The notes under the pieces: model-generated | What the model saw: the letters and a program-made list of their open reading frames with translations, nothing else | Told to the model about the DNA's origin: nothing | The model's database searches: none | IMG/VR virus record: IMGVR_UViG_3300035698_013031 | Span: 1-44,843 of that record | Length of the DNA: 44,843 nt | Strand: one strand, 5' to 3' | Source: a virus | Shown: piece by piece, positions 2,138 through 44,453 of the stretch | Layout: the number at the start of each line of letters is the position of its first letter | Numbering within the stretch: the stretch's first letter is position 1 | Made by a program: the position numbers and the translations under genes

Positions 2138-3052
2138 ATGACCGAAGTAAACCCAGGTACAGACCAAGATGTAGAGCTTACCGAAGAACCAAAATTGATA
2201 ACAACCGAGGTCGTAGCATCTTATTCAGGGAAGATCTCAACCGGGAGATATGAAAATGAATCGCCGTTCTTTTCTCTTAAAGAAGTCTGGACAGGTGATA
2301 TTAATGTGGATGAACGGCAGCGGGAATTGTCAGAGAAGTGCTACCGAAAATTCTCTGAATGTGAGCAAAGGTCCATTATCGCTAGAATTATGGCAGAAAG
2401 AAAAGATCTCCGATTTTACCCTCAAGAAGACGGAAAAAGCTATCCGTCAATTACTTCAATCCTCGGGTGGGATAAAGATTTTTTCATCAGTACGCAAGAG
2501 CTGCTACAATACGGTGCTCGTGGTACTCTCATTCACAGACTTATAGAAATCTATGCCAAGCTAAAGGTTTGGAAAGAAGCCAAAGACTTGCTTCCATACC
2601 ACAGGGAATATGTGGTAGTCACCAAGGGATCCCTCAGCTTGTCTTTGGACGGCTATAGGATCGACAAGTTTTGGGAAGACTACGGCCTCGAGACATCAGA
2701 GACAGAGTCTGTTTCAGTTAACCCAGAGCATGGCTATGCCGGCAGGAAAGATTGGAAGGGGCTTGCTTATACAGAGAAGAAGACCGCAAAGAATGATCCA
2801 TCCAAGAAGCTCACCATGATTGATTGGAAAACCTCTGCGAAACTTGACAAGAAGTATGTGCTCTGCCAGCTGGCAGCCCATGTCTTCTGTCCTGGCAACG
2901 AAGACGTTGAGCAGGTCATAGCTGTCCCAGTTAACAATACGACAGCTCAAGGGTACACTGCCCCAATTGTGATGGCTAGAGAGGACCTCAAGCCTTATTT
3001 TGACTTGTTCTTAAAGCAGAAGGAAAACTTCAACTATCGATTTGGGTTATAA
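2138..3052 (+). CDS. PD-(D/E)XK family nuclease (RecB/Cas4-like)
   Basis: This 304-residue protein is a predicted metal-dependent nuclease of the PD-(D/E)XK fold, phage exonuclease/RecB-like branch. The fold elements appear in order: a helix with H133 (YGARGTLIHRLIE), an acidic residue near D205, the catalytic strand MIDWKTS with D229 and K231, and the following helix with Q244 (QLAAH). The first 100 residues have no recognised domain. The ribosome binding site AAAGGAG is well placed. It sits in the replication block near the SSB and primase genes, so a role in recombination or end-processing during replication is likely. The substrate cannot be told from sequence. Confidence 0.85.
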   Translation: MTEVNPGTDQDVELTEEPKLITTEVVASYSGKISTGRYENESPFFSLKEVWTGDINVDERQRELSEKCYRKFSECEQRSIIARIMAERKDLRFYPQEDGKSYPSITSILGWDKDFFISTQELLQYGARGTLIHRLIEIYAKLKVWKEAKDLLPYHREYVVVTKGSLSLSLDGYRIDKFWEDYGLETSETESVSVNPEHGYAGRKDWKGLAYTEKKTAKNDPSKKLTMIDWKTSAKLDKKYVLCQLAAHVFCPGNEDVEQVIAVPVNNTTAQGYTAPIVMAREDLKPYFDLFLKQKENFNYRFGL

Positions 3053-3243
3053 TGCCAAAAGGTTATTGCGGCGCATGGATCTGCGATATATGCGGTGTCC
3101 ATGCAGAGTTTCATAGATGTATAAAATATAACAAAAAAGGGGAACCTATCCATGAGTACCTATGCTGGCCATGTAAACGGAAGATTGATGAAGGTTGGTC
3201 CCCGGAGGAAGGTACCCGCGGAGAAGAAGACTTTCTTGGGTGA
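3052..3243 (+). CDS. Small zinc-finger protein
   Basis: This 63-residue protein has paired cysteines at ICDICG (residues 10-15) and LCWPCK (about 37-42), with His18 and His35 between them. That is the pattern of a single zinc-binding treble-clef or ribbon. The ATG overlaps the stop of the nuclease gene as TAATG, implying translational coupling. Its 3' part overlaps the next gene in another frame by 92 bases. The function is unknown. Confidence 0.7.
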   Translation: MPKGYCGAWICDICGVHAEFHRCIKYNKKGEPIHEYLCWPCKRKIDEGWSPEEGTRGEEDFLG

Positions 3244-9475: not shown

Positions 9476-10036
9476 TTAGTGTTTCGGATCGTTAATAATC
9501 CGCCGGCCTGGCTCTTTGCATAACGAGCACGTCCGGCAGTCTCCCGCGCAGGTATAGCGGGCCTTTTTATTTTCGTATGAAAAATTATTATCTATCATGA
9601 AGCCGGACCCGTTAATTACTACATTTCGCGGCCGGATCTCCGGGATTGTTAGATCCCGGCGCGCTGTGTACCCGTAAAAGATCACGTCCGGGACCTGCGC
9701 GGCCACGTTTAGAAGCTTATTTATACATTTCTGTGTCGTAAAGTCTCCGGCCTCGTTGAAACGTATATATTTAATCTTTTTATGCCTGGCCAGTGCGGCG
9801 TTTATATCCGCGGCCGTCTCCGCGGCCGTTGTCAATAGCCAGTATTTTTTTTGAGCTTTCCTGTACGGCAGGCAGGCCGGATATTGGCGTTCCGGCCGTT
9901 GCGCGCAGCATTGCCCGGCCGGGATCTGACAAAGGCCCAGCGCTTGGGACGGGCAGCCTGTGGCCGGTCCCATGTTAAAAATGAGCGTGTCCCGGCCTAG
10001 TTTTTTATCTCCTATAGTATATTTAAACGGGATCAT
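9476..10036 (-). CDS. GP88-like phage/plasmid protein
   Basis: This 186-residue protein matches the layout of the 'gene product 88' family first named in mycobacteriophages. It has an N-terminal Cys-rich stretch (C28, C36, C43, C44, C55), the signature RFNEAGDF (92-99), YGYTAR (121-126) and NGSGF. A C-terminal cluster CAGDCRTCSLC has cysteines 163, 167, 170 and 173. The cysteine clusters suggest a metal or iron-sulfur site. The biochemical role of the family is not established. The ATG follows the stop of the 93-residue gene by overlap (ATGA-like), so it is part of a tight operon. Confidence 0.7.
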   Translation of the reverse strand: MIPFKYTIGDKKLGRDTLIFNMGPATGCPSQALGLCQIPAGQCCAQRPERQYPACLPYRKAQKKYWLLTTAAETAADINAALARHKKIKYIRFNEAGDFTTQKCINKLLNVAAQVPDVIFYGYTARRDLTIPEIRPRNVVINGSGFMIDNNFSYENKKARYTCAGDCRTCSLCKEPGRRIINDPKH

Positions 10037-11035: not shown

Positions 11036-11941
11036 TTAATTATTATTCATGAAGGGAAGCTCCCGCTCGATCCCCTCCGCCAGTGTCCAAAGGTCCCGGT
11101 TTAGTTTCAGATCCCGCGTCACGTCCTTGATCGTGCGCGTGCTAGATCTGCGGCCCGTTTGGGTCCTGGCCTGGATCCCGCCTTTGATCATGTTTTCCTG
11201 TATCACGTTAAACGTGCGCCAAAGGTCCCGCGGCCCTTCTATCGCGTCATTATGATAATTATATACTCTATTATTCGGTTGATCCGCCAGGCGGCGCGCT
11301 TGTAGCATTCGCGCAGGCCTTAGATCCAGCGCGGACCCGTAAAGATCCAGCGCGGCCTTTGCCATGTTTTGCTGTGTGTCCGGACTCAACTCCAGGCCTT
11401 GCCAGCGGCCGACCGTCTCCAGGATCCGCGGCGCGTGTTTCATCATGTCCCGGGATCCCTGTATAATATTATCCAGCGTATCACGCCGCCCGGTGTGAAC
11501 GGCGCGGATCTCTTCAATATTCCCGTCCGCGGCCGTCATACCATTGGAGCAAATAAGCCGATAAAGGCCAAAGAAAAATTGAAAGGCCGCGCTGCCGTCG
11601 TGGCTATTTGTGAGGCCGAACTCCGGGATCACGTCCCCGACTTGCGGCGCGTCATTTCCCCGTTGTCTAAAGCGTACGACGTGGCGCGTATGAGCTTCTT
11701 TGCCAAACGTGCGCGCCTTTGATTGATAGGCCTTGACCGGGTAAAAGCCCGCGTCCCTCAAACTATCAACTATTTGAATTGTAGGTATAAAACGATATTT
11801 AGCGCTTACTCCGCCCGGACCTCCCAGCGCCCTGGATTGTTTGGCTGTTACGTCCCCGGATCTCCGGGCCCAAGGCTGCAGCGCGAATATTGACGGCGCC
11901 TTCCTTTGCAAAGTCTCGTTATTTAGCTCTAAATTGTTCAT
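11036..11941 (-). CDS. DUF932 phage/plasmid-like protein
   Basis: This 301-residue protein matches the DUF932 family (phage/plasmid-like protein TIGR03299), common in plasmids and phages and without settled function. Recognisable parts are SAKYRFIPTIQIVDSLRDAGF near residue 46, the RHVVRFRQ strand, and the central PEFGLTNSHDGSAAFQFFFG followed by RLICSNGM. The C-terminal part is helical. AAGGGGG lies six bases upstream of the ATG. It is the largest gene of the GC-rich leftward block. Confidence 0.85.
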   Translation of the reverse strand: MNNLELNNETLQRKAPSIFALQPWARRSGDVTAKQSRALGGPGGVSAKYRFIPTIQIVDSLRDAGFYPVKAYQSKARTFGKEAHTRHVVRFRQRGNDAPQVGDVIPEFGLTNSHDGSAAFQFFFGLYRLICSNGMTAADGNIEEIRAVHTGRRDTLDNIIQGSRDMMKHAPRILETVGRWQGLELSPDTQQNMAKAALDLYGSALDLRPARMLQARRLADQPNNRVYNYHNDAIEGPRDLWRTFNVIQENMIKGGIQARTQTGRRSSTRTIKDVTRDLKLNRDLWTLAEGIERELPFMNNN

Positions 11942-13422: not shown

Positions 13423-13519
13423 AAGAATAGGTTAGATACTCGATGTTGTGCACCATACTGCAAGGTGTTGGCCTACTTCATCTTGCAGCAGCACATTTCA
13501 ACCAACCAGGAGACGCTTT

Positions 13520-14119
13520 TTGAAGCTTAATCGCTGGTCCACATATAAGTACAATAGACGCATAGGCATGTCAATCCCTAACGCGGCGATTGCAGCAGGG
13601 TACCCTCGTTCCCTGGTCGACAAACACACAAAAAACTTACCTATTCCTATAACCCCTACTGCCAGTGGTGGAGGGTTCTCGACGGACTTCTTCGCTCTGT
13701 TTGAGCAGAAACAGATGACAGACCTCAAGAAGGTAGAACATGCTGTGGCGGGAATGGACGCAATGAAGGTTGTCAGCCTCGAGACAGACGAAACGACGAA
13801 GAACGGGAAAAAGGTGTATATCCGGCAGGAGGTGCCAGATTGGACTGCCCGGCACAAATATTACGAGACAATGCTGAAACTGTGTAAACAGATGGAGAAG
13901 GGGTCGTCAAACAACAAGATCCTGGTTCTCGGCGCTGAGTTCGCAAACAAGCTCAAAGTGGCACGAGAGCGCTCGACGGAAGAGGTCAAGCAGCGGCTGG
14001 AGAAAGATATAGTAGTTGAGGCACATATAGCAACGACAGATGTGAAGGTAGAAGTCACAGAAGATCACAAGAAGGGCATGAGTTTGGAGGAATGCATGGA
14101 TGCGGAGTACGCAGAGTAA
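13520..14119 (+). CDS. Terminase small subunit
   Basis: This 199-residue protein is the likely DNA-recognition subunit of the packaging motor. The N-terminal helix-turn-helix reads RIGMSIPNAAIAAGYPRS, with the NAAxxAGY core shared by many phage small terminases. A following segment (WTARHKYYETMLKLCKQM) resembles the oligomerisation helices. The frame is open from 13448, but the first 24 codons make no sense. TTG at 13520 has AGGAG seven bases upstream and gives a start just before the HTH. It is the first gene of the late operon, two genes before the large subunit. Confidence 0.8.
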   Translation: MKLNRWSTYKYNRRIGMSIPNAAIAAGYPRSLVDKHTKNLPIPITPTASGGGFSTDFFALFEQKQMTDLKKVEHAVAGMDAMKVVSLETDETTKNGKKVYIRQEVPDWTARHKYYETMLKLCKQMEKGSSNNKILVLGAEFANKLKVARERSTEEVKQRLEKDIVVEAHIATTDVKVEVTEDHKKGMSLEECMDAEYAE

Positions 14120-14207
14120 CAGGAGGGTAAGGGTAAGGCTATGGCTTGTTAATATATAATTTTTAGATTTATCAGGAGCCGTCCTACAGACAAAAACGAG
14201 GTGGAAG

Positions 14208-14594
14208 ATGGAAATTTTAAACTTAGGAAGTAAAAGATTCACAGAAGTTATCGTACTTGATGGTAAAGGCGCCGGTGGCGCTAACCACGAATACGAGGTT
14301 AGAGGTACGGTTAAACAGAGGTTGCCATATAACCAGGAGGAAACTTTTCCTGTATTTGCAAAAGTCTCTTTTCAAAATGGCCCGGTTAAAGAAAACCCTG
14401 TAAATGGAGTTCATCAAGAGGATTTACTCAACATCGTTATCCACAGACTTCAGAGTTTTCAATCAGGCGATTTCAGATGCCGAGAAAATGCACTGGCGAT
14501 CACGAAGATAGAGGAAGCACTGATGTGGCTTAATAAGAGAACGCAGACCCGGCAGGACAAGGGTATTGAAGGCAAAAGCATAAATCACGAATAA
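14208..14594 (+). CDS. Tad1/Acb2-type anti-defence cyclic-nucleotide sponge
   Basis: This 128-residue protein closely resembles the Tad1 family, whose C-terminal part is the Acb2/Tad1 hairpin domain. Signature stretches are FQNGP (55-59), [17 protein letters not shown] (65-81), FQSGDF (84-89), REN (92-94), and the helix ending in WLNKRT (107-112) and GIEG (119-122). Characterised Tad1 and Acb2 proteins form oligomers that sequester cyclic ADP-ribose isomers or cyclic di- and trinucleotides, blocking Thoeris or CBASS immunity. The N-terminal beta-rich half fits Tad1 better than the shorter Acb2. Which ligand this one binds cannot be read from sequence. It sits between the two terminase genes; GAGGTGG precedes its ATG. 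Confidence 0.8.
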
Positions 14595-14624
14595 CAATCA
14601 GGGCGGCTCCTGATAAGGAAAAAT

Positions 14625-16163
14625 ATGAGTATAGAGAAACAATGGCTGATAAATGATATAGCGAAATTTTCACTGGATCCGTATGGATTCGTCCTTTACG
14701 CATTCCCATGGGGAGAGAAGGGCGGGCCTTTAGAGAAACACGAAGGGCCAGACGTTTGGCAAGCCAAGGTATTGCGGGACATGAGCGTGCAGCTGCAGAA
14801 AGGCGCCATGACAACCGCAGACGTTATCAGGCTGGCAACGGCCGCAGGGAACGGGGTTGGAAAATCCGCGCTGGTTTCCTGGATCATTCTGTGGGCTATG
14901 TCGACTTTCGAAGATACTCGTGGCGTTGTGACAGCCAACACAGAGAACCAGCTCAGGACCAAGACTTGGGCAGAGCTTTCAAAGTGGCATCAGATGTGTA
15001 TAGTCAAAGAGTGGTTTGTGGTTACGGCTACCGCCATGTACTCAAAGAACCCGGATCATGAGCGCACATGGCGAATTGACCAGATCCCTTGGAGCGAAAA
15101 TAAGCCAGAAGCGTTTGCTGGACTGCATAATCAAGGGAAGAGAGTTATCCTCATATTTGATGAGGCGTCAGCAATCCCGGATATTATATGGGAAACCGCA
15201 GAAGGAGCGATGACAGATGAAGACACCCAGATTATATGGGCAACCTTTGGGAATCCAACTCGGAACTCAGGACGGTTCCATGCTTGTTTCAACTTTCTTA
15301 GACACAGATGGCGCAGTCGTCACGTCGATTCACGAACTTGCAAATTCACAAACAAAGTCCAAATCGCTAAATGGATCGAAGATTACGGAGAAGACTCTGA
15401 CTTTGTCAGAATCCATGTTCGTGGTGTATTCCCCCACGCCTCGTCCCGTCAGTTCATTTCGGGCGATATCGTGGAGATGGCGCGTGGGAGGTTCCTGCGA
15501 CCAGAGCAGTACAATTTTGCCCCTGTAGTGATCGGAGTGGATCCGGCATGGGAAGGTTGTGACTTTTTTGAAATTGTATTACGGCAAGGGCTCATGAGTA
15601 AAATTTTAGCTACATATCCAAAAAATGATGACGATGTTGAAATGGCTGGCCGGATTGCTTTGTTTGAAGACGAATATAAAGCTGATGCAGTATTTATCGA
15701 TCTCGGTTATGGAACTGGTATTTACTCTGCCGGCAAGCAGATGGGGCGGAAGTGGACCCTGATCCCGTTTGGTGGTAAGAGCTCAGATGAAGGCTTCCTT
15801 AATAAGAGGGCTGATATGTGGAATAAGATGAAACAGTGGCTTGCTTCAGGCGGGTCAATTCCAAACGACCCAGCGATGTGCACAGATCTGACAGGTGTCG
15901 AATCTAGGATCGGTGAGCTGGGGCCTAACTGTGGAAAACTATATTTAGAGCCAAAAGAGAGCATGAGATCAAGAGGGCTTGGATCGCCAGGCAAAGGTGA
16001 CGCCCTAGCAATTACTTTTGCACACCCAGTTAAATCTAAGATACAGCGCGGGTTTCAGGCACAGATGGATATTGCCCAGCCATATGACCCACTTTCACTA
16101 AATGTAAGACAGCCGGAAAGCCGGTTCGATCCATTAGCTTTAACACAAGGGAGATTAAACTGA
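14625..16163 (+). CDS. Terminase large subunit
   Basis: This 512-residue ATPase-nuclease drives DNA packaging into the prohead. Walker A is GNGVGKS (residues 75-81) and Walker B is VILIFDE (174-180), followed by the coupling region TFGNPTRNSGRF (207-218). The RNase H-like nuclease domain shows its catalytic aspartates at VIGVDPAWEG (D306), VFIDLGYGTG (D359) and KGDALAI (D459). The length is normal for the family. AAGGA lies upstream of the ATG. Sequence alone does not give the packaging type. Confidence 0.95.
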   Translation: MSIEKQWLINDIAKFSLDPYGFVLYAFPWGEKGGPLEKHEGPDVWQAKVLRDMSVQLQKGAMTTADVIRLATAAGNGVGKSALVSWIILWAMSTFEDTRGVVTANTENQLRTKTWAELSKWHQMCIVKEWFVVTATAMYSKNPDHERTWRIDQIPWSENKPEAFAGLHNQGKRVILIFDEASAIPDIIWETAEGAMTDEDTQIIWATFGNPTRNSGRFHACFNFLRHRWRSRHVDSRTCKFTNKVQIAKWIEDYGEDSDFVRIHVRGVFPHASSRQFISGDIVEMARGRFLRPEQYNFAPVVIGVDPAWEGCDFFEIVLRQGLMSKILATYPKNDDDVEMAGRIALFEDEYKADAVFIDLGYGTGIYSAGKQMGRKWTLIPFGGKSSDEGFLNKRADMWNKMKQWLASGGSIPNDPAMCTDLTGVESRIGELGPNCGKLYLEPKESMRSRGLGSPGKGDALAITFAHPVKSKIQRGFQAQMDIAQPYDPLSLNVRQPESRFDPLALTQGRLN

Positions 16164-16440: not shown

Positions 16441-18105
16441 ATGAAATCGAATTACACGACGAAAGATAGTTGTAAGAAGAGATTCGCTGACATTGAGAAG
16501 GAAGGTCAGAAGTGGATCCCTGCGTGGAAGGATCTCTCAAAGTTCCATGATCAGACTCGTGGCCGATTCGAGGGGGATCCACCAAACCGCGGGAAGATGA
16601 TTGATCACAAGACCATTCTTGATGGCCATTCTACGCAGGCTAGTAATATACAGGCGAGCGGGCTCCAGAGTGGAATAACGTCTCCTTCGCGCCCTTGGTT
16701 CAAGGTCCGCGTGCCAGATGACGATATGATGAAGATTCAGTCTGTTGGTGTATGGTGTGACACAGTCACAAAGAGCATGTTGAGAATTTGCGCGCAGAGC
16801 AACGTGTACGCTACTTTTTACTCAATGTATAAAGAAATTGGAATCTTTGCTGTAGCGAACGCATTATTTGTTGAAGATGTCGATAAAGTTATCCGCGGCA
16901 AGGCGTTCACTTGTGGCGAATATTACTTGGGAATTGATGCTGCCGGTCGCGTTGATACGATGGGCAGGAAGTATCAGCTTCAGGTAAATCAGATGGTTTC
17001 AGCTTTTGGTCTTGAAAATTGTTCTCCAGCAGTGCGGACTCTTCATGAGCAGCAGAAGCATGATGAGTGGAGAACTGTTTATCACCTGATCGAGCCGAAC
17101 ACAAACAAACTTGAAGGATATGAAGATGAGCAGAACATGGCATATCGTTCTGTTTATTGGGAGATTGAAGCGGGAGACGACCTGTTAGCTTTCAGGGGAT
17201 TCCACGAGAAACCTTTTATTTCTCCAAGATGGGATACCGTTACGACTGACACCATATATGGATATGGATCAGGTTGGAATTCCTTAGGGAACGCAAAGCA
17301 GCTCCAGAAAACACAACTGGATAAGCTCATTGCACAAGAGAAGAGCCATAACCCTCCGATGCAGAAGGATGGCTCAGTTGAAGGTCACGTTAACTTGTTG
17401 CCGGGTGGAGTCACAACGACAAGCTCCAGCCAACCGAACGCAGGCGTGCGTCCGGCTTACCAGATAAACGCAGATCTCAAATCGTTCTTGGAGCTTATCG
17501 ATGCTTTACATACAGCAATTGATAAGGACTTTTTTGTTAACTTGTTCCTTATGATGGTTAATTTTGACAAATCTAACATGACGGCCACAGAGGTTGCGGA
17601 ACGTCAACAGGAAAAAATAATGATGATGGGTCCTGTGTTAGAGAGGCTTCAGAATGAGATGTTGGATCCATTCCTTGATAGGTTGTTCAATATTATGGAG
17701 CGAAATTTGCTACTACCCGAACCACCTGAGGAAATGCAAGGAGTGCAGTTGGAGGTAGAATATGTCTCTATTCTTGCCCAGGCACAGAGAGCTGTTGGTG
17801 TTAACTCTATTAGCAGGGTTGTTGGCTTTGTTAACGCTGTTCTTCCGATAAAGGCTGACGCAGTAGATGTAATAGACATCGATGAAGCAATTCGAGAAGT
17901 CGCCAAGATGGAAGGAGTTCCAGCAAAGATTGTAAACGATATTCAAATAATTAATAAAATCCGTGAACAGCGAGCACAGGCACAGCAGATTAAAGATAAT
18001 TTGGCTGCTGCGGAAACAATGAGTAAATCAGCAAAGAATGCGGCTGGAGCAAAAACAACAGAGCCCAGTGCTCTGACAGCTGCGATGGAGCAACAGAATG
18101 CCTGA
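16441..18105 (+). CDS. Portal (head-tail connector) protein
   Basis: This 554-residue protein matches the podovirus head-to-tail connecting protein family (T7 gp8-like, PF12236). Typical features are the N-terminal WKDLSKFHDQTRGRF, QASGLQSGITSPSRPWF (about 72-88), the middle stretch LQKTQLDKLIAQEKSHNPPM and the helix with MTATEVAERQQEK (about 380-392). It forms the dodecameric ring at the packaging vertex. It follows the large terminase as usual. Confidence 0.93.
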   Translation: MKSNYTTKDSCKKRFADIEKEGQKWIPAWKDLSKFHDQTRGRFEGDPPNRGKMIDHKTILDGHSTQASNIQASGLQSGITSPSRPWFKVRVPDDDMMKIQSVGVWCDTVTKSMLRICAQSNVYATFYSMYKEIGIFAVANALFVEDVDKVIRGKAFTCGEYYLGIDAAGRVDTMGRKYQLQVNQMVSAFGLENCSPAVRTLHEQQKHDEWRTVYHLIEPNTNKLEGYEDEQNMAYRSVYWEIEAGDDLLAFRGFHEKPFISPRWDTVTTDTIYGYGSGWNSLGNAKQLQKTQLDKLIAQEKSHNPPMQKDGSVEGHVNLLPGGVTTTSSSQPNAGVRPAYQINADLKSFLELIDALHTAIDKDFFVNLFLMMVNFDKSNMTATEVAERQQEKIMMMGPVLERLQNEMLDPFLDRLFNIMERNLLLPEPPEEMQGVQLEVEYVSILAQAQRAVGVNSISRVVGFVNAVLPIKADAVDVIDIDEAIREVAKMEGVPAKIVNDIQIINKIREQRAQAQQIKDNLAAAETMSKSAKNAAGAKTTEPSALTAAMEQQNA

Positions 18106-19145: not shown

Positions 19146-20171
19146 ATGGCTGCTTTAACATCAGGTTGGCCGACTCTGATAGACATTTCCAAATCGTTAG
19201 ATCCTGACGGAAGTGTAGCAGAAGTCGCAGAAGTTCTTCAGGAGTCAAATGAGATGCTTGACGATATTCCATGGTATGAGGGAAACCTCCCCACAGGACA
19301 TCAGTCCAGCATTCGCACGTCATTACCAGCACCTAAGTTCCGTCTTTTGAACGCAGGTGTTATTCCGGCTAAAACCACACGAGGCCAGATCGTTGACCCT
19401 TGTGCGATTTTAGAAAACAGAAACCACATTGACGTTGATGTTGCTATGATGAATGGCAACACAGCTGAATTCCGTAAATCGGAAGATGCTGGTTTTATTG
19501 AAGGTTTTAACCAGACGTTGATGGACACGATCATCTATGGTGACGTATCTGCTAATCCAGAGCAGTTCAATGGCTTAGATTCAAGATACTACTCACTTAC
19601 GGGTGAGACAACATCAGCTCAGGTTATTTCTGCTGGTGGTGGTACGACTAACAACACCTCTATCTGGCTTGTTGGTTGGGGCCCGAAAAAGGTTTTCTGT
19701 ACTTATCCTAAGGGAAGCAAGGCTGGTCTTCAGTTTGAAGACATGGGTATTGAGAATGTTATCACCGATAGCTCCACTGGTGCTACGATGCGTGCTTACA
19801 TTTCTTGGTTCCAATGGAAAGCTGGTCTAGTTGTACAGGATTATCGATATGTTGTTCGTATCGGTAATATCAATAGCACTCAGTTACTAACTGCGTCTGA
19901 TGCAACAGATACCTCCTCAAACATCATTAAGTTGATGGTTCGAGCTTTAGGTCTTCTGCCAAATCAGTCTGGGATCAGACCTGTCTTTTACTGCAACAAG
20001 GAAGTTCAGTCCATGTTGTCAGTGAAGATGTTGGACAAGGGTAATGTTTTCATGAGCATGAACGAAATTAAGAACACACCTGTGTTCCGTCCTAATACGA
20101 CACTTTCGTTCCAGGGAGTTCCAGTTCGACGTTGTGATGCGATCCTAAACACCGAAGGGGTGTTGGCGTAA
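19146..20171 (+). CDS. Major capsid protein
   Basis: This 341-residue protein is the likely HK97-fold coat protein of BPP-1-like podoviruses. Its place between scaffold and cement gene, its length, and the segments DIPWYEGNLPTG (about 40-51), FNQTLMDTIIYGD and IWLVGWGPKKVFCTYPKG are typical. A strong ribosome binding site (AAAGGAG) suits high expression. No N-terminal prodomain cleavage site is evident. Confidence 0.92.
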   Translation: MAALTSGWPTLIDISKSLDPDGSVAEVAEVLQESNEMLDDIPWYEGNLPTGHQSSIRTSLPAPKFRLLNAGVIPAKTTRGQIVDPCAILENRNHIDVDVAMMNGNTAEFRKSEDAGFIEGFNQTLMDTIIYGDVSANPEQFNGLDSRYYSLTGETTSAQVISAGGGTTNNTSIWLVGWGPKKVFCTYPKGSKAGLQFEDMGIENVITDSSTGATMRAYISWFQWKAGLVVQDYRYVVRIGNINSTQLLTASDATDTSSNIIKLMVRALGLLPNQSGIRPVFYCNKEVQSMLSVKMLDKGNVFMSMNEIKNTPVFRPNTTLSFQGVPVRRCDAILNTEGVLA

Positions 20172-25369: not shown

Positions 25370-28300
25370 ATGAGAGTCCCTAGATACGAGCAGAAAGTAA
25401 AATCTTTAGCGGTCCCAAATGTAGCCCAGAGGAACATACCAATTCCAGACTCTTCCACTGCTGGCAATATCTCTAAGGCTAGAGATTTTCAGGACCTTGC
25501 TGTTGCTGTTGGAAAAGCTGGCGGTCACATTATTGAGCGCGTAAGACAGCGCCAGAAAATAGATTTCCAGCAACAAGCGTCTGATCTAAAGACTGACTGG
25601 AGTCAGAAACTTAACGATAAGCTTTTTAGCACTGAGACAGAGGTTTACGAGGGACCAGACGGAGAGCAAGCAGAGCGTCCTGTTGGGGTTATGAACTGGA
25701 AGGGAAATAATGCTGTAGGCGCGTGGGAAGAGTTTGAACGATACTCAGTAGAGCTTGCTCCGAGCTATGTTAATCAAATCCAAGATGCAGAATATCAGAA
25801 AATATTTGCTGGTGACCTTGAACAGGTTAAGTCCACGAAGTCCGGGAATGTTTTGAAGCATGAATCAAACGAGTGGAACGCTGCAAAAACAGACTCTTTT
25901 GAAGCCGCTGTCACGCAATCGATAAATGACGGAAATATTGAGGCGGGGGATAAGGCGTCAATGGATCTTGCTAATTTCCAGGGTATCGATCCCAAGGAAA
26001 AGATTAAGCAAACGAGGGCTAGTATTGTCCGTAATACGGCAATGGCACAGCTTGAAGTAAGCCCAGACGATACTGGGGTGACTGCATACCTTGATGCTGT
26101 TGATAAGGCAAAGATTTTAGATCCTGAAGATTCCCAGAAGATCAGGAAATCTGTGAGAACTGCGTCAAATGCTATTAAGAAAGAGCGTAAGGCGCAGAAA
26201 GTGACTTTGCAGACGAGCAATCTGGTTAACTTGGTTGAAGGGATCCTTAAAAACGAGACTGGTCCGTTGAATTCTGATGATATTGCATTGATGGGGTTGA
26301 ACGGAGACCTTCCTAAGGGAGCTGCAGAAGCTGCACAGCAATTTGTTGATCTGAAATATGTTAAAGGAGACGAACTTGATACTCTCGGGCTTGAAGAGCA
26401 CACTGTTACTCATATTCAAGCAATTCTTGCTGCATCTGACCCAGAAGACACGGGCGCGGCAATTACAGCGATCATGGGAGATAAGAAATATTCTAGTGAA
26501 GAAGGCCGGAAGCGTGCGGTTGTTATGCTACAGTCAGCTACAGATTTAGCCAAGACTTCTGACGCTCGATCAGTTGCTAAAGATTCCATAGATACAATCG
26601 TTGCATTCCAGGAACAGCGTGGCCTTAAGAAGGGCGAGGCTATGATTGATTTTATGAAGTTGATCTCTGGCGGAATGTCTCCTCAGAATGCTACTGAGCA
26701 AGTTATAGAGCGACAGTCAATTCAGCAGATGAGTAGCAGAGAAAAAGAATTTGTTTTAGGTAAGGAAATTGTTGATGCTATGCTGGCTGTTCCTATGGAG
26801 CTGCCAACAATTCAGCAAGCTTTTGCAGATAATGGCTACAGTGAGAAGATCGGGAAATCGATCTTCCAATACGCGCTTAAGAGCGGCGCTGATGTTGAAG
26901 CAGCTGCACAGCTATCTGAGCAGGTTATTTCAAGCACTCATGGCGCTAAGAACCGGGTTGAGTTTCTTCAGACGCTTACGGAGTCTTTGAATAAGGCCAT
27001 CCCTGAGTTAAAATTTAATACAAACATCCCAGAGAAGCTTCAGGAGGTCTTGAGAAGCCATCAGCTGATCCAGTTTATTTCAGAGGATACGTCTCCTGAG
27101 ATGGAAGAGATCCGAGCAAAAAATCCCTTAGCCTACGCTGGCCTGACTGTTCTTCAGGAAGCTGGCGCGGCTGGGGCGTCCTTGCTCAATGGTATTCTCA
27201 TTGGTTTGCCAGGACAGCTTTTAAAGCAGTCTGGAATTGACATGCCAAAGGCACCGTCAGTTCCCGGAGAGATTCTTCAAGGTATTGGAGAGCTTTATGG
27301 ATTTGTAAAAGGTGGAGCTGGTATTGCAGCCAAGTATACTGTTGGGGCTGCAACAAAGTCGGCTCTTTTTGCGAGAGGTGTTGCTAAGGCCAGCGCATCT
27401 GGAAAAGCAGCAGCTGTGGCGGCTACTATTGCTTTCCACACTGCAAGGTCAGCTGCAACTCTCTCTGTAATGAGCGCTGTCCAGACTCCAGAAACTGGGA
27501 TAGGTGATTGGAGGGCTAGAGTGGAACAAGCAAAAGGTGGAGCTGGGACAGGTACTTGGTTTGGTGTGATCGGAACGATCTCTTCCAGGAAATATCCTGT
27601 TCTCACAACAGCTATTCGAATGGCAGCTTCTTCTCTTGTTACCTGGGTTCCTTCTTACCAGGCGGGCGAGAGTGTGACGAAGCAGGCCTACCAGGTTGCC
27701 CTAGGTGTCTATTTTGGACAACATGGCATTGATTATAAGGAAGTTGCTAAAATCAAGGCTGAGACTGATCGTCTGGCTAAAGAGACAAAGAACCCGGAAG
27801 GCAAGAAAGCCTTAGAAGAGACTTCTGACGTATTGGGAGAGCTGAACCAAAAGAATATTAAGGAAGTTGATGTTTTGCTTAAAGAGCAGCAAGCCGCTAA
27901 GGTGAAAGCTGAAACTCAGCGTGATGCGTTGATCAAGTCTAAAGAAAAGCCAGGTGAAAAGGCTGGAGCTAAAAAGGGCCTTACTTCTCAAGAAGCACAA
28001 AAAGAGCTTTCGATTGATGCTGAAGGAAATCCTGTTGGCGAAGGGAAGATTAGAGTAAAGTCAAGCAGCGGGAAGATTGGTCAGGAAAGTAACCAGACGG
28101 GCCTTGAGGGCGTGCAGAAAGAAACCATTGCTGAGATAAAATCTCTTCAGAAAGATTTCGGGGGAGAAGTCAGCATAACTGGTCTTACTGAGAAAGGTCA
28201 TATCATCGGAGACAAGTCTCACGGTTCCGGGCACAAGTTTGACGCTGGGTTCAAGAGCAATCCTAAGCTAACGAAGTGGATTAAGAAAACCTTTGAAAAA

Positions 28301-29965
28301 GTTGAGGCAAGAGGGGACGGTTCTGTTGGATATAAAAATCCAAAGACTGGAACAATTTATTATGCTGAAAGGAACAATCACTGGGACGTTGTTGTTGATC
28401 CCGCGCCAAAGGCGAGCTCTGCGGCTACAGTGCCAGAGGTCCCGACTAAGAATGTAACGAAAAAGGGAGTTGTTGAAGTCCCGGATGCACCTGAGGACAC
28501 CTCTCTTATCGGGCGGTATAAAAAGCTAAGAAAAGAGATTTCTGACCGCAGGAAAAATTCCGTATCTTTTGGCGGAGACAAGACGTATATTGACAAGCAA
28601 GTCAAAGGCATGGGCATGGAAACTTCGGCTGTTGTTCGTAAGCTTGAAGGAAAGCCCACAGTGACAGAAATTAGAAACGAGGTAACTCGTCTTGACAAAA
28701 ACTATGCTGGCAAAAAGGTTACTACTCCAGATGGAGAGGGAATAATCGTAGGAAAGCCAGCTTTTGGTAAGTTTAAAGTGAACGTAAAGGGTGTTGAAAA
28801 AAGCTATACGTCTGAGGATATAACCTCTAAGCCCGCTACAGGTCAACAGGCGATTGAGTCTTTAAGAAAGCAAGCTCAGGCTGATGCTGAACTTACAATT
28901 AAGAATTTCTCTAAGCCAGAGAAAACAAATACTATCGTTTCGGATGGCAAGGAATATCGAAGAGTTGGGGATAGGATTGTAGAAAACAAAAATATTGGGC
29001 AGTGGGAATTAAAGTATAAGGGAGAATGGAAACCAGTTAAAAATCTTCAAATAAGTGCTAGTCTTGAGGCTAAAAGAGAAGCTTCAGCTACCCCGGAAAA
29101 GAAGTTCGGATCCGAAAACAAGGTTTTTACTCAAGATAAACTAGAGCAGGCTCGCAAGAATTTAAAAGATAAGCTGGGTGGCCTCCACTCGGGAATTGAC
29201 CCTACGGCGATAAAGGACCTCGCCACTGTCGGAGGGTATTATTTTGAGGGCGGGGTAAGAGAATTTCCGGCTTGGTCAGCTAAAATGACAAGCGAGTTTG
29301 GTGATAAAATTAAACCACATCTAAAAGAAATCTGGGGACAATCCCAGGGCGGAGAGCCTAAAGTTGAGTCCACACCCCCTAAGCTTGAAGAACAGAAGAG
29401 AGGGCCTGGAAGAAAAACGAGCGAGTTGGCGAAATCTGTTACAGAAGATGCAATCCAACGCGGTCTTATTAAAGACGCAGCGGATCTTCCGACACATGCC
29501 GTTCGGCCGATCACAAAACAGATTGCTTCCGACGTTCAAAGGTTTATTAGCGCTGACCCAGCACTAGCTAAGAAGATCGCCTTGGGTGGCCGAAGCCTTG
29601 AACGCTTAGCTCCTGGTGGCCTACGATCAGAGGAAATTTATACTGGCGTAAGGCTCAGAGCTATGCTCGAGGGCGATATTCAGACGATCCACGATCTTTC
29701 TCATTCAAAGTCGAGGGTATTGGCTGAGGTTACAGAGTCTGCTCAACGTATTAAGGCAACGGATCCAGGCTATGCAGAAGATCCAGTTGGTGCTATTAGA
29801 GAGGTTTCTAAGATTAGGGAAACGGTTGCTACAAAGAAACTTAAGACAGGTAAAACAGTCGAAACAACTAAAAGAAAAGAAGTTGAATCGATTAAGAAAG
29901 AAATCAAAAAATCGCGTCCAAAAGCAAAAGATTGGAACGATTTCATAGAAAACTTGAGGTGTTGA
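25370..29965 (+). CDS. Large internal virion protein with peptidase M15-like region
   Basis: This 1531-residue protein is likely the main ejected core protein, like T7 gp15/gp16 in position. The first 600 residues are helical; about 590-720 are hydrophobic and small-residue rich and may contact membrane. At about 905-1010 lies a segment with SHGSGHKFDAG (H951, D957) and NHWDVVV (H1004). It resembles the metal-binding motifs SxHxxGxAxD and HxH of M15-type peptidoglycan peptidases. A further domain near 1265-1315 (LHSGIDPTAIKDLATVGGYYFEGG, shown in part) is common in phage large polyvalent proteins. The peptidase call is inference; the virion role is well supported by context. Confidence 0.8.
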   Translation: MRVPRYEQKVKSLAVPNVAQRNIPIPDSSTAGNISKARDFQDLAVAVGKAGGHIIERVRQRQKIDFQQQASDLKTDWSQKLNDKLFSTETEVYEGPDGEQAERPVGVMNWKGNNAVGAWEEFERYSVELAPSYVNQIQDAEYQKIFAGDLEQVKSTKSGNVLKHESNEWNAAKTDSFEAAVTQSINDGNIEAGDKASMDLANFQGIDPKEKIKQTRASIVRNTAMAQLEVSPDDTGVTAYLDAVDKAKILDPEDSQKIRKSVRTASNAIKKERKAQKVTLQTSNLVNLVEGILKNETGPLNSDDIALMGLNGDLPKGAAEAAQQFVDLKYVKGDELDTLGLEEHTVTHIQAILAASDPEDTGAAITAIMGDKKYSSEEGRKRAVVMLQSATDLAKTSDARSVAKDSIDTIVAFQEQRGLKKGEAMIDFMKLISGGMSPQNATEQVIERQSIQQMSSREKEFVLGKEIVDAMLAVPMELPTIQQAFADNGYSEKIGKSIFQYALKSGADVEAAAQLSEQVISSTHGAKNRVEFLQTLTESLNKAIPELKFNTNIPEKLQEVLRSHQLIQFISEDTSPEMEEIRAKNPLAYAGLTVLQEAGAAGASLLNGILIGLPGQLLKQSGIDMPKAPSVPGEILQGIGELYGFVKGGAGIAAKYTVGAATKSALFARGVAKASASGKAAAVAATIAFHTARSAATLSVMSAVQTPETGIGDWRARVEQAKGGAGTGTWFGVIGTISSRKYPVLTTAIRMAASSLVTWVPSYQAGESVTKQAYQVALGVYFGQHGIDYKEVAKIKAETDRLAKETKNPEGKKALEETSDVLGELNQKNIKEVDVLLKEQQAAKVKAETQRDALIKSKEKPGEKAGAKKGLTSQEAQKELSIDAEGNPVGEGKIRVKSSSGKIGQESNQTGLEGVQKETIAEIKSLQKDFGGEVSITGLTEKGHIIGDKSHGSGHKFDAGFKSNPKLTKWIKKTFEKVEARGDGSVGYKNPKTGTIYYAERNNHWDVVVDPAPKASSAATVPEVPTKNVTKKGVVEVPDAPEDTSLIGRYKKLRKEISDRRKNSVSFGGDKTYIDKQVKGMGMETSAVVRKLEGKPTVTEIRNEVTRLDKNYAGKKVTTPDGEGIIVGKPAFGKFKVNVKGVEKSYTSEDITSKPATGQQAIESLRKQAQADAELTIKNFSKPEKTNTIVSDGKEYRRVGDRIVENKNIGQWELKYKGEWKPVKNLQISASLEAKREASATPEKKFGSENKVFTQDKLEQARKNLKDKLGGLHSGIDPTAIKDLATVGGYYFEGGVREFPAWSAKMTSEFGDKIKPHLKEIWGQSQGGEPKVESTPPKLEEQKRGPGRKTSELAKSVTEDAIQRGLIKDAADLPTHAVRPITKQIASDVQRFISADPALAKKIALGGRSLERLAPGGLRSEEIYTGVRLRAMLEGDIQTIHDLSHSKSRVLAEVTESAQRIKATDPGYAEDPVGAIREVSKIRETVATKKLKTGKTVETTKRKEVESIKKEIKKSRPKAKDWNDFIENLRC

Positions 29966-29966
29966 T

Positions 29967-31934
29967 ATGGCATGGTGCATCCCCGGACAATTTGTTGACG
30001 CTTTCAAACAAAAGCTCATTTCTGGCGAAATAACTCCAGACAAGCTTACGGACATGACTTCTAAGGAGCGGAGAACCTACCTAGAGGGCATTATAGGCAA
30101 GGAAAACGCTGAGAGAGCGAATGTCCTGTTTGAAAAGAAACTTCTTCTAAAGAACCAGCAGCGTGGCATCATAACCTGGGCTGAGACGCTTGCAGGGCTA
30201 CGTCCAGCGGCGAAGAAAGATATTATTTCAAAGGTAAATCGTATGGAAGAGGTCTTGAACCCAGAAACGCAAGACGCTTTTCTGGCTGATCTAGCGGCTC
30301 AGAAGCTTGGGTTTGGTGTGACTATGGAAGAAGCGGGGAATATTTCTACAATGGCTAAAGATGTATTTGAGAAGAACCAAAAAGCTGACGCTGGAGAGAT
30401 CCCTCACCTTGAGGCAGCTAGAGCTAAGGTTTCGTTTGATAATTATGTTGCTGATCTGAAATCCTCTTCTGGTGCAAAAACATTTAAAGAATATTTTGAT
30501 CCAAAAAATTCTGGAGAACTCGCTGTGCAAGGCGCTGGTGTTGCGAAGACGCTTAAAGCTTCTCTTGATAATAGTGTAATTGGCCGACAAGGGCTGAAAG
30601 CTCTGTTCACGCACCCGGATATCTGGGCCAAGAATTCTCTAAAGAGTTTTGGCGATATCATTAAGTCGTTTGGCGGGAAAGAGGTCTTAAACGAGGTCCA
30701 GGCTGAGATCTACGCAAGAGAGAATTTCCGTAATGGAAGATATAAGAATGAAAAGCTTGATATCAATTCTGGTGAAGAATCCATTGCTTCTCATGCCCCA
30801 ACTCACATTCCTATCCTCGGGAGAGCATTTAAGGCTTCTGAGGCGGCATTTACAGCGTGGCAGTACCGCACGCGAGCAGACGTGTTCGATCGCCTGGACT
30901 CTTCAATAAGAAGAGCTGGCGGGGACACCCAGGGCCTTGGCGAGCTGGTGAATTCTCTTACTGGCCGCGGTAGTTTAAACGTCAAAGGAGTTGGAAATTT
31001 TGAGGGAGTATCTAAATTTACGAACAATGTTCTTTTTTCTCCAAGATTGCTAAGGAGCAATATTGATGCATTGACAGGACACGCCTTGTCTAGAGACATG
31101 AGCCCAGCTGTAAGGAAACAAGCGGCATTAAACACCATTAAAATGATCACTGGGATGGCTTCTGTTCTTAAAATTGCTGATTTGTTCGATAAAGATGCTG
31201 TTGAGTGGGATCCTACTAGTGCTAATTTTGGTAAAATCCGGGTTGGTGACACAAGGTTCGACGTCTCTGGCGGTATGGCTAGTGTAGCTGTTCTTGCAGC
31301 CAGATTAGCTACCTGGAGCTCAAAGAGTAGCACAACTGGAATTAAGTCTAAGCTGAACACTGGCGAGTTCGGGTCTTTAACGACAGAAGACGTTGTCCAG
31401 AACTTCTTGAGAAACAAGTTGTCCCCGGCAGCCAGCGTAATCAGTGATTTGTCTCGCGGGAAGACATTTTCTGGAGAAAAGGTTGGCTTTAGCCTTACAG
31501 ATGCAGACCAAAACATTAAAACCTTAAAGCTAGAAGGTGTTAATCTGTTAGCGCCACTTCCAATTACAAATTATCTTGAGCTTAGGGATAACCCTAATTC
31601 AGCAAATCATCTTGTAGCCATTCTTGCTGATCAACTAGGTATCGGAACCAACACATACCGGGCAGAATCTGACTGGGACCAAAACACTGGCGCAGAGCTT
31701 ACTCAATTTAAAGATAAAGTTGGTAAGGAATCGTTTGAGGCAGCGAACAAAGAATTTAATGACGAAGTCAACGAATGGCTTCTTGCAGCATTTAAGAATG
31801 AGAAGTGGGAAGCGCTTTCGGAAGAAGACAAGAAGAAAGTTCTTACGAGAGAGAAGGCGTCTATTAAAAAGAAAATATTCAAAAAGCATAGGTTTTATCC
31901 TAAGAAAAAGTCAAGCAATTTACCTAAAATTTAA
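29967..31934 (+). CDS. Second large internal virion protein
   Basis: This 655-residue protein is helical and resembles the C-terminal region of phage large polyvalent/internal virion proteins: SLDNSVIGRQGLKALFTHPD (about 192-211), a central HIPILGRAFKASEAAFTAW with RTRADVFD, and a DMSPAVRKQAALNTIKMITGMASV segment (partly hydrophobic). The last 30 residues are very basic (KKKIFKKHRFYPKKKSS). In many phages this part is fused to the preceding large protein; here a stop and a new ribosome binding site (GAGGTG) separate them by one base. It probably completes the ejection core. Confidence 0.75.
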   Translation: MAWCIPGQFVDAFKQKLISGEITPDKLTDMTSKERRTYLEGIIGKENAERANVLFEKKLLLKNQQRGIITWAETLAGLRPAAKKDIISKVNRMEEVLNPETQDAFLADLAAQKLGFGVTMEEAGNISTMAKDVFEKNQKADAGEIPHLEAARAKVSFDNYVADLKSSSGAKTFKEYFDPKNSGELAVQGAGVAKTLKASLDNSVIGRQGLKALFTHPDIWAKNSLKSFGDIIKSFGGKEVLNEVQAEIYARENFRNGRYKNEKLDINSGEESIASHAPTHIPILGRAFKASEAAFTAWQYRTRADVFDRLDSSIRRAGGDTQGLGELVNSLTGRGSLNVKGVGNFEGVSKFTNNVLFSPRLLRSNIDALTGHALSRDMSPAVRKQAALNTIKMITGMASVLKIADLFDKDAVEWDPTSANFGKIRVGDTRFDVSGGMASVAVLAARLATWSSKSSTTGIKSKLNTGEFGSLTTEDVVQNFLRNKLSPAASVISDLSRGKTFSGEKVGFSLTDADQNIKTLKLEGVNLLAPLPITNYLELRDNPNSANHLVAILADQLGIGTNTYRAESDWDQNTGAELTQFKDKVGKESFEAANKEFNDEVNEWLLAAFKNEKWEALSEEDKKKVLTREKASIKKKIFKKHRFYPKKKSSNLPKI

Positions 31935-43280: not shown

Positions 43281-44453
43281 CTAACCCTTTATAACTCCTA
43301 ATGGTTCTAACTTTACAACAATATCAACTAAATCCGATTGCTCTTCCATAACAACATCAATGTCTTTGTATGCTCCGCTGGCTTCATCTAGGTCATTCTT
43401 GTGTCTAATGCTATGGACAATACCATCCATTGCCTTAATCTCATCTTCTAGTATAAGCTCATGCTTTGCTTTAGTTCGGCTCATCTTACGACCTGCTCCA
43501 TGAGAACAAGATTTAAAACTTTCTTCATTGCCTTTACCCATAACAATATAAGAAGATGTACCTTGGGAGCCTGGAATAATACCAAGTTGTCCTGCCCTAG
43601 CCATAGTAGCACCTTTTCTATGTACCATAACATTTGATCCAAAATGATGTTCCACTTGAGCAAAATTATGATGAATATTAATTTCTGGTTCAAATTCACA
43701 AGGACAAACTAAATTAACACAAACCTTAATATCTTCCAGCATCTTTTTTCTGTTTTCATAGGCAAACTCTAAGGCGAAGTTCATAGCTTTTAGATAATCT
43801 TGTCCTTCTTTGGTGGTCAAAGGAAGAAACGCAAGCCCATCATCTCCCTTAAACTCTGGAACATTTGAGTACCACATCAAGCATAGGTCTTGTGCAACTC
43901 TATTGTAGTGATTCGCAATCTTGTACCCTAGATTTCTGCTACCACTATGTACCATTATCCAAATGAATCCATCATTACCTTTTTGTAGTTCAATGAAGTG
44001 GTTTCCACCTCCAAGAGTTCCTAGTTGCTTCATAGCAGAACTAAGTTCTTGTTGAATAATGGGAATATCAGGAGCATTGGTAAATCCTTCCCACTCTTGT
44101 GCTTTACCTCTATGATTGAAACCGACCGGAACAGCACTTCTTATGCCACCCTTAAACTCCTTGGAACCTCCAAATATTTGTTTTATTTCATCAATATAAA
44201 GATTAGTAAGGGATGTTTTAACAGCACACATACCACATCCAATATCAACACCAACTGCATTAGGAATAACAATTCCCTTAGTTGCAATGACTCCACCGAT
44301 AGGCATACCGTATCCTTGGTGGGTGTCTGGCATTAGACAAACCTGTTTGAATATAAATGGGAGATTTGCTAAATTTTTTGCTTGGTCTATGGCACCTTCT
44401 TCTGGATTATTACACCAACTTTTTATTGGTACTTTTTCATTATAAATTTTCAT
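43281..44453 (-). CDS. rtcB: RtcB-type RNA ligase
   Basis: This 390-residue protein is a GTP-dependent RNA ligase joining 2',3'-cyclic phosphate or 3'-phosphate ends to 5'-OH ends. Visible motifs are MPDTHQGYGMPIGG (41-54), the metal ligands in GVDIGCGM (68-75, D70 and C73), GGGNHF (148-153), MVHSGSR (167-173), HHNF (261-264) and HGAGR with H318, the histidine that carries GMP. The length is that of the short RtcB class. A phage copy could repair tRNA or other RNA cut by host anticodon nucleases. It is AT-rich and GATC-poor, unlike most of the genome. Confidence 0.95.
   Translation of the reverse strand: MKIYNEKVPIKSWCNNPEEGAIDQAKNLANLPFIFKQVCLMPDTHQGYGMPIGGVIATKGIVIPNAVGVDIGCGMCAVKTSLTNLYIDEIKQIFGGSKEFKGGIRSAVPVGFNHRGKAQEWEGFTNAPDIPIIQQELSSAMKQLGTLGGGNHFIELQKGNDGFIWIMVHSGSRNLGYKIANHYNRVAQDLCLMWYSNVPEFKGDDGLAFLPLTTKEGQDYLKAMNFALEFAYENRKKMLEDIKVCVNLVCPCEFEPEINIHHNFAQVEHHFGSNVMVHRKGATMARAGQLGIIPGSQGTSSYIVMGKGNEESFKSCSHGAGRKMSRTKAKHELILEDEIKAMDGIVHSIRHKNDLDEASGAYKDIDVVMEEQSDLVDIVVKLEPLGVIKG

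Follow-up and report, generated by a model that had tools for sequence, protein, structure and literature searches.

A Tad1-family gene immediately upstream of the large terminase gene in an epsilon15-like phage

The locus examined here raises the question of what a putative immune-signal sponge would be doing among the head genes of a phage. The window, a viral stretch of 44,843 nucleotides (IMG/VR record IMGVR_UViG_3300035698_013031), carries on its forward strand an open reading frame for 128 residues with an ATG start (14208..14594), preceded by a likely ribosome-binding site, GAGGTGG (14198..14204, with GAGG at 14198-14201). The original prediction described its product as a Tad1-like sponge encoded between the terminase genes, and sequence comparison substantiates that identity. 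The product scores 31.5 bits against the Acb2_Tad1_hairpin family (PF24729; curated cut-off 27) and matches phrog_2428 with an E-value of 1.7e-36, while phmmer against PDB chains retrieves CmTad1 (6.4e-25), CbTad1 (2.3e-20) and, at 5.6e-9, gp184 of phage phiKZ. With a family profile of 80 rows the same three entries are recovered at about 1e-39, about 1e-41 and 1.3e-18, respectively. A tblastn search of 50,697 phage records yields matches in 120 of them; the closest studied homologue is the Tad1 of SBSphiJ7 (63% over 57% of the query), and the nearest relative of all is 62% identical (locus L067). These matches lie far beyond chance, and the reading frame is hence a genuine gene, tad1, encoding an ordinary member of the already known Tad1 family.

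The predicted structure leads to the same assignment. A monomer model built with AlphaFold from the window protein and 79 of its 132 non-redundant relatives has a mean pLDDT of 91.2 and a pTM of 0.79, and presents three strands (residues 12-16, 28-33 and 49-55) followed by two helices (70-86 and 92-117), bearing out the proposal of a beta-rich N-terminus ahead of a two-helix hairpin. Searched with Foldseek, this model returns 20 chains at E-values of 0.001 or lower, all of them Tad1. The structural match suggested as a check on the identity is also found, since VIA-align superposes the model on CbTad1 bound to gcADPR (7uaw) with a Z-score of 14.6 and an rmsd of 1.6 Å over 121 of 128 residues, and on CmTad1 (8kbb) with a Z-score of 14.4; the best row outside Tad1 reaches 6.8 over 54 residues. 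Acb2 shares the Pfam hairpin domain with the window protein, but an excerpt of PMC12043709 describes it as a protein of about 94 residues made of a short N-terminal helix and two long helices, without a beta part, whereas the window protein has 128 residues and three strands ahead of its hairpin. The presence of this beta part and the match over the full length of the fold thus identify the protein as Tad1 and not Acb2.

Likeness to the characterized Tad1 proteins (CbTad1, 7uaw/8kbf; CmTad1, 8kbb; SBSphiJ7) extends from sequence, length and architecture to the conserved residues. The family alignment was assembled from 18 loci fetched initially, 80 more viral loci, taken from 456, and 62 from bacterial or archaeal genomes; a Tad1 reading frame was present in 159 of them, 157 passed the length and letter filters, and removal of near copies left 132 relatives, which with the window make 133 rows. 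Over these rows the window protein keeps the invariant G67, Q85, N94, R111 and R115 and the near-invariant H27, Y29, F55, Q56, F84, C91, E93 and W107, and the run of signatures originally marked at residues 55-122 coincides with the conserved stretch of the alignment. The only invariant or near-invariant position to have changed is K118, an arginine in 126 of the 133 rows; I120 replaces the usual valine, a conservative change. In CbTad1, we take R57, F82, N92, R109 and R113 to be the residues that contact the ligand. Four of these five are identical in the window protein (F84, N94, R111 and R115), and R57 is replaced by V60, a position occupied by valine or isoleucine in the functional Tad1 of SBSphiJ7 and in most relatives. 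V60 and K118 are the two departures from the studied or usual Tad1 sequence that we count against a sponge function.

The surroundings of the gene are those of a late head-gene cluster, with tad1, the large terminase subunit (14625..16163; phrog_2, E 2.8e-36), the portal or head-tail connector (16441..18105; phrog_332, E 1.2e-135) and the major head protein (19146..20171; phrog_212, E 6.1e-72) following one another on the forward strand. The terminase belongs to the epsilon15 group (about 54% identity by tblastn), and the order of terminase, portal and head protein is that of this group (Uetakevirus). No close DNA relative of the window phage was found in the phage collection. Only 30 nucleotides separate tad1 from the large terminase gene, and 88 from an upstream forward-strand reading frame of 223 codons (13448..14119). 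The placement between terminase genes is firm on its downstream side, whereas the upstream frame is called a putative small terminase from its position: it has no family above threshold in Pfam or PHROG and no tblastn match among the 50,697 phage records, its hhalign comparisons with five candidate small terminases are weak, and its single-sequence fold (pLDDT 36.8) is useless. In epsilon15 itself the small terminase gene runs 4 nucleotides into the large one, with nothing between them, and in four mapped relatives (L020-L023) the frame ahead of the large terminase likewise overlaps the terminase start. Hence, tad1 looks like an insertion into the packaging cluster. Fetched stretches from 20 terminase relatives, several of them near copies, lack a Tad1 reading frame, and the GC content of tad1 (41.9%; the late region averages 43.8%, standard deviation 4.1) gives no sign of foreign origin.

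Elsewhere in the window, a DUF932 protein (11036-11941) and a Gp88-family protein (9476-10036) are encoded on the reverse strand ahead of the late cluster. Large late frames include one for 1531 residues (25370-29965) and three with no PHROG match (29967-31934, 35023-37962 and 37966-40002). An RtcB-like tRNA splicing ligase is encoded on the reverse strand (43281-44453), and no tRNA genes were found in the window phage. PADLOC, run on six other window proteins, reports no defence genes. In another locus (L003:1-1401), an apparent intein C-terminal end (...VTHN), read by eye, stands just before the ATP-binding motif of a large-terminase frame.

The position of tad1 had been singled out as worth notice, and its recurrence near terminase genes in other phages justifies that remark. 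A large terminase, sought by iterated phmmer with incomplete detection, was located in 29 of the 132 fetched Tad1 stretches and lies on the same strand as tad1 in 27; in most loci the fetched stretch yields none. A separate survey with phrog_2 found a terminase in 23 of the 48 whole viral records given. The gap between tad1 and terminase is at most 1.5 kb in 19 of the 27 same-strand stretches, where small same-strand frames of the same stretches would lead one to expect 9.7 (P 3.7e-5, for rows that are not fully independent). The excess rests on this comparison of distances within stretches, because 19 of 132 overall is only slightly above the roughly 10% that we would guess, without computing it from the data, for random placement on a 45-kb genome. 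The arrangements themselves are varied: tad1 stands between terminase and portal in five loci (L057, L068, L091, L133 and L139), immediately 5' of the terminase in L076, ahead of a small terminase (PF03592), the terminase and the portal in L067, and 3' of the head protein gene in L078, a locus with the same kind of terminase as the window. Genes near the terminase are scattered over the Tad1 tree instead of forming one clade, and thus represent many separate placements. On a quick tree, 17 changes suffice to account for the 20 rows concerned (the window and these 19), where shuffling requires 18.3 on average; well-supported branches force at least five changes of state in what is a poorly resolved tree from a short alignment.

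What, then, would a sponge gene do in such a place? The explanation that we regard as likely is that tad1 encodes a Tad1 sponge that blocks the messengers of Thoeris or CBASS and is made together with the late head genes. By homology, the protein is expected to bind gcADPR or cyclic nucleotides and thereby to block one or both of these systems. If it behaves as its family does, it would form a hexamer, built of three dimers, trapping gcADPR-type messengers as well as cyclic di- and trinucleotides, and the effectors of Thoeris or CBASS would stay off once the messengers are trapped. The position of the gene suggests that it would be expressed with the head genes, and its proposed rank as one of the first late genes, tying anti-defence to structural expression, is plausible on the same grounds. 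An adaptive rationale for this timing can be put forward, as a passage of PMC12578639 names the major head protein itself as the trigger of staphylococcal and streptococcal Thoeris systems; were the sponge produced along with the head genes, it would be at hand when the alarm is raised. Late placement is nonetheless not needed for activity, since the Tad1 genes of SBSphiJ7 and of its relatives in 035JT004 and P59 reside in replication clusters and not, like the window gene, next to the large terminase.

A second feature of the locus is an inverted repeat of 17 nucleotides, complementary at 16 of 17 positions, whose forward-strand arms lie just outside tad1 (14169..14185 and 14600..14616), the right arm overlapping the start of the AAGGA that precedes the terminase ATG. 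It is possible, if doubtful, that the repeat is a trace of the arrival of tad1, marking the ends of a small inserted cassette, or else a control element acting as an RNA stem; the stem would then close tad1 in a loop and either cover the beginning of the ribosome site of the terminase gene or be cut by RNase III. The arms flank the gene exactly, and their score is never reached when the two flanks are shuffled 3000 times with dinucleotides preserved, while one of 4000 positions drawn at random across the window equals it. They pair, beside the terminase ribosome site, whether the RNA structure of minimum energy or the centroid is taken. One relative (L055) carries a perfect inverted repeat of 38 nucleotides around its own tad1 (L055:2494-2531 and 3019-3056), the right arm falling within a longer hairpin and a terminase-like frame lying downstream. 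On the other hand, this is the only one of 128 relatives tested to score as high, the overall RNA fold at tad1 is ordinary (z -1.65) and inspection by eye reveals no target-site duplication. A mobile-element origin of the repeat was sought by a scan of viral contigs for the arm sequence, which gave 14 other stretches with a single match each and no pair.

The late position of tad1 admits also a reading, in our judgement unlikely, in which Tad1 would form part of the head, enter the cell together with the DNA and act from the first minute of infection; late expression would be needed in this case because Tad1 would be a component of the particle. The homologue gp184 of phiKZ is a structural protein according to its record, and a gp184 chain is present in PDB entry 8y6v, which we take to be a phiKZ capsid structure. 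Its C-terminal Tad1 domain shares the N94, R111 and R115 positions with the window protein. An excerpt of PMC10449902 reports validation of its injection (western blot, n = 1), and a review passage (PMC13282480) likewise has phiKZ injecting Tad1. Orf71 of Lactococcus phage 1706, with 117 residues and no N-terminal extension, is labelled a structural protein. Together, the injection of the phiKZ protein and the label of the 1706 protein keep a virion-carried sponge a live idea, which also gains from the genes lying between terminase and portal or after the head protein in the six loci given above. Yet gp184 has been found in the virion and is extended by about 110 residues at its N-terminus, whereas the window protein has no such extension and is known from its sequence and a model. 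Moreover, orf71 (L040:3992-4345) no longer has several of the conserved residues (L stands for F84, T for N94) and may therefore be a structural protein and not a sponge, perhaps a Tad1 fold turned particle part, and the term structural is a record label for P59 and CM1, the P59 gene lying among replication genes. We consider it a slimmer prospect that the window phage and other phages with short genomes have repeatedly put Tad1 in the packaging or head cluster, for loading into the particle or for synthesis matched to that of the head protein, without the N-terminal tether of the phiKZ type. Finally, that the protein is an Acb2-type or purely structural relative, its fold kept for an accessory role in head or packaging and its messenger binding lost, is very improbable: the location of tad1 and the structural labels of gp184 and orf71 would agree with it, but the full-length Tad1 fold, beta part included, and every family-invariant residue are retained, where release from ligand binding should have led to losses like those of orf71.

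With the window, the phages known to carry Tad1 come to include an epsilon15-like one, and our analysis reveals that Tad1 genes recur near the terminase or portal in phages whose copies of the gene do not constitute one clade. If the sponge were timed to head-protein synthesis or borne by the particle, the trigger of some Thoeris systems, the head protein, and its antidote would be encoded in one operon, and carriage in the particle would mean that a sponge is already on hand when the next cell is infected. Under either arrangement, the point of the infection at which the sponge must be present would become directly testable.
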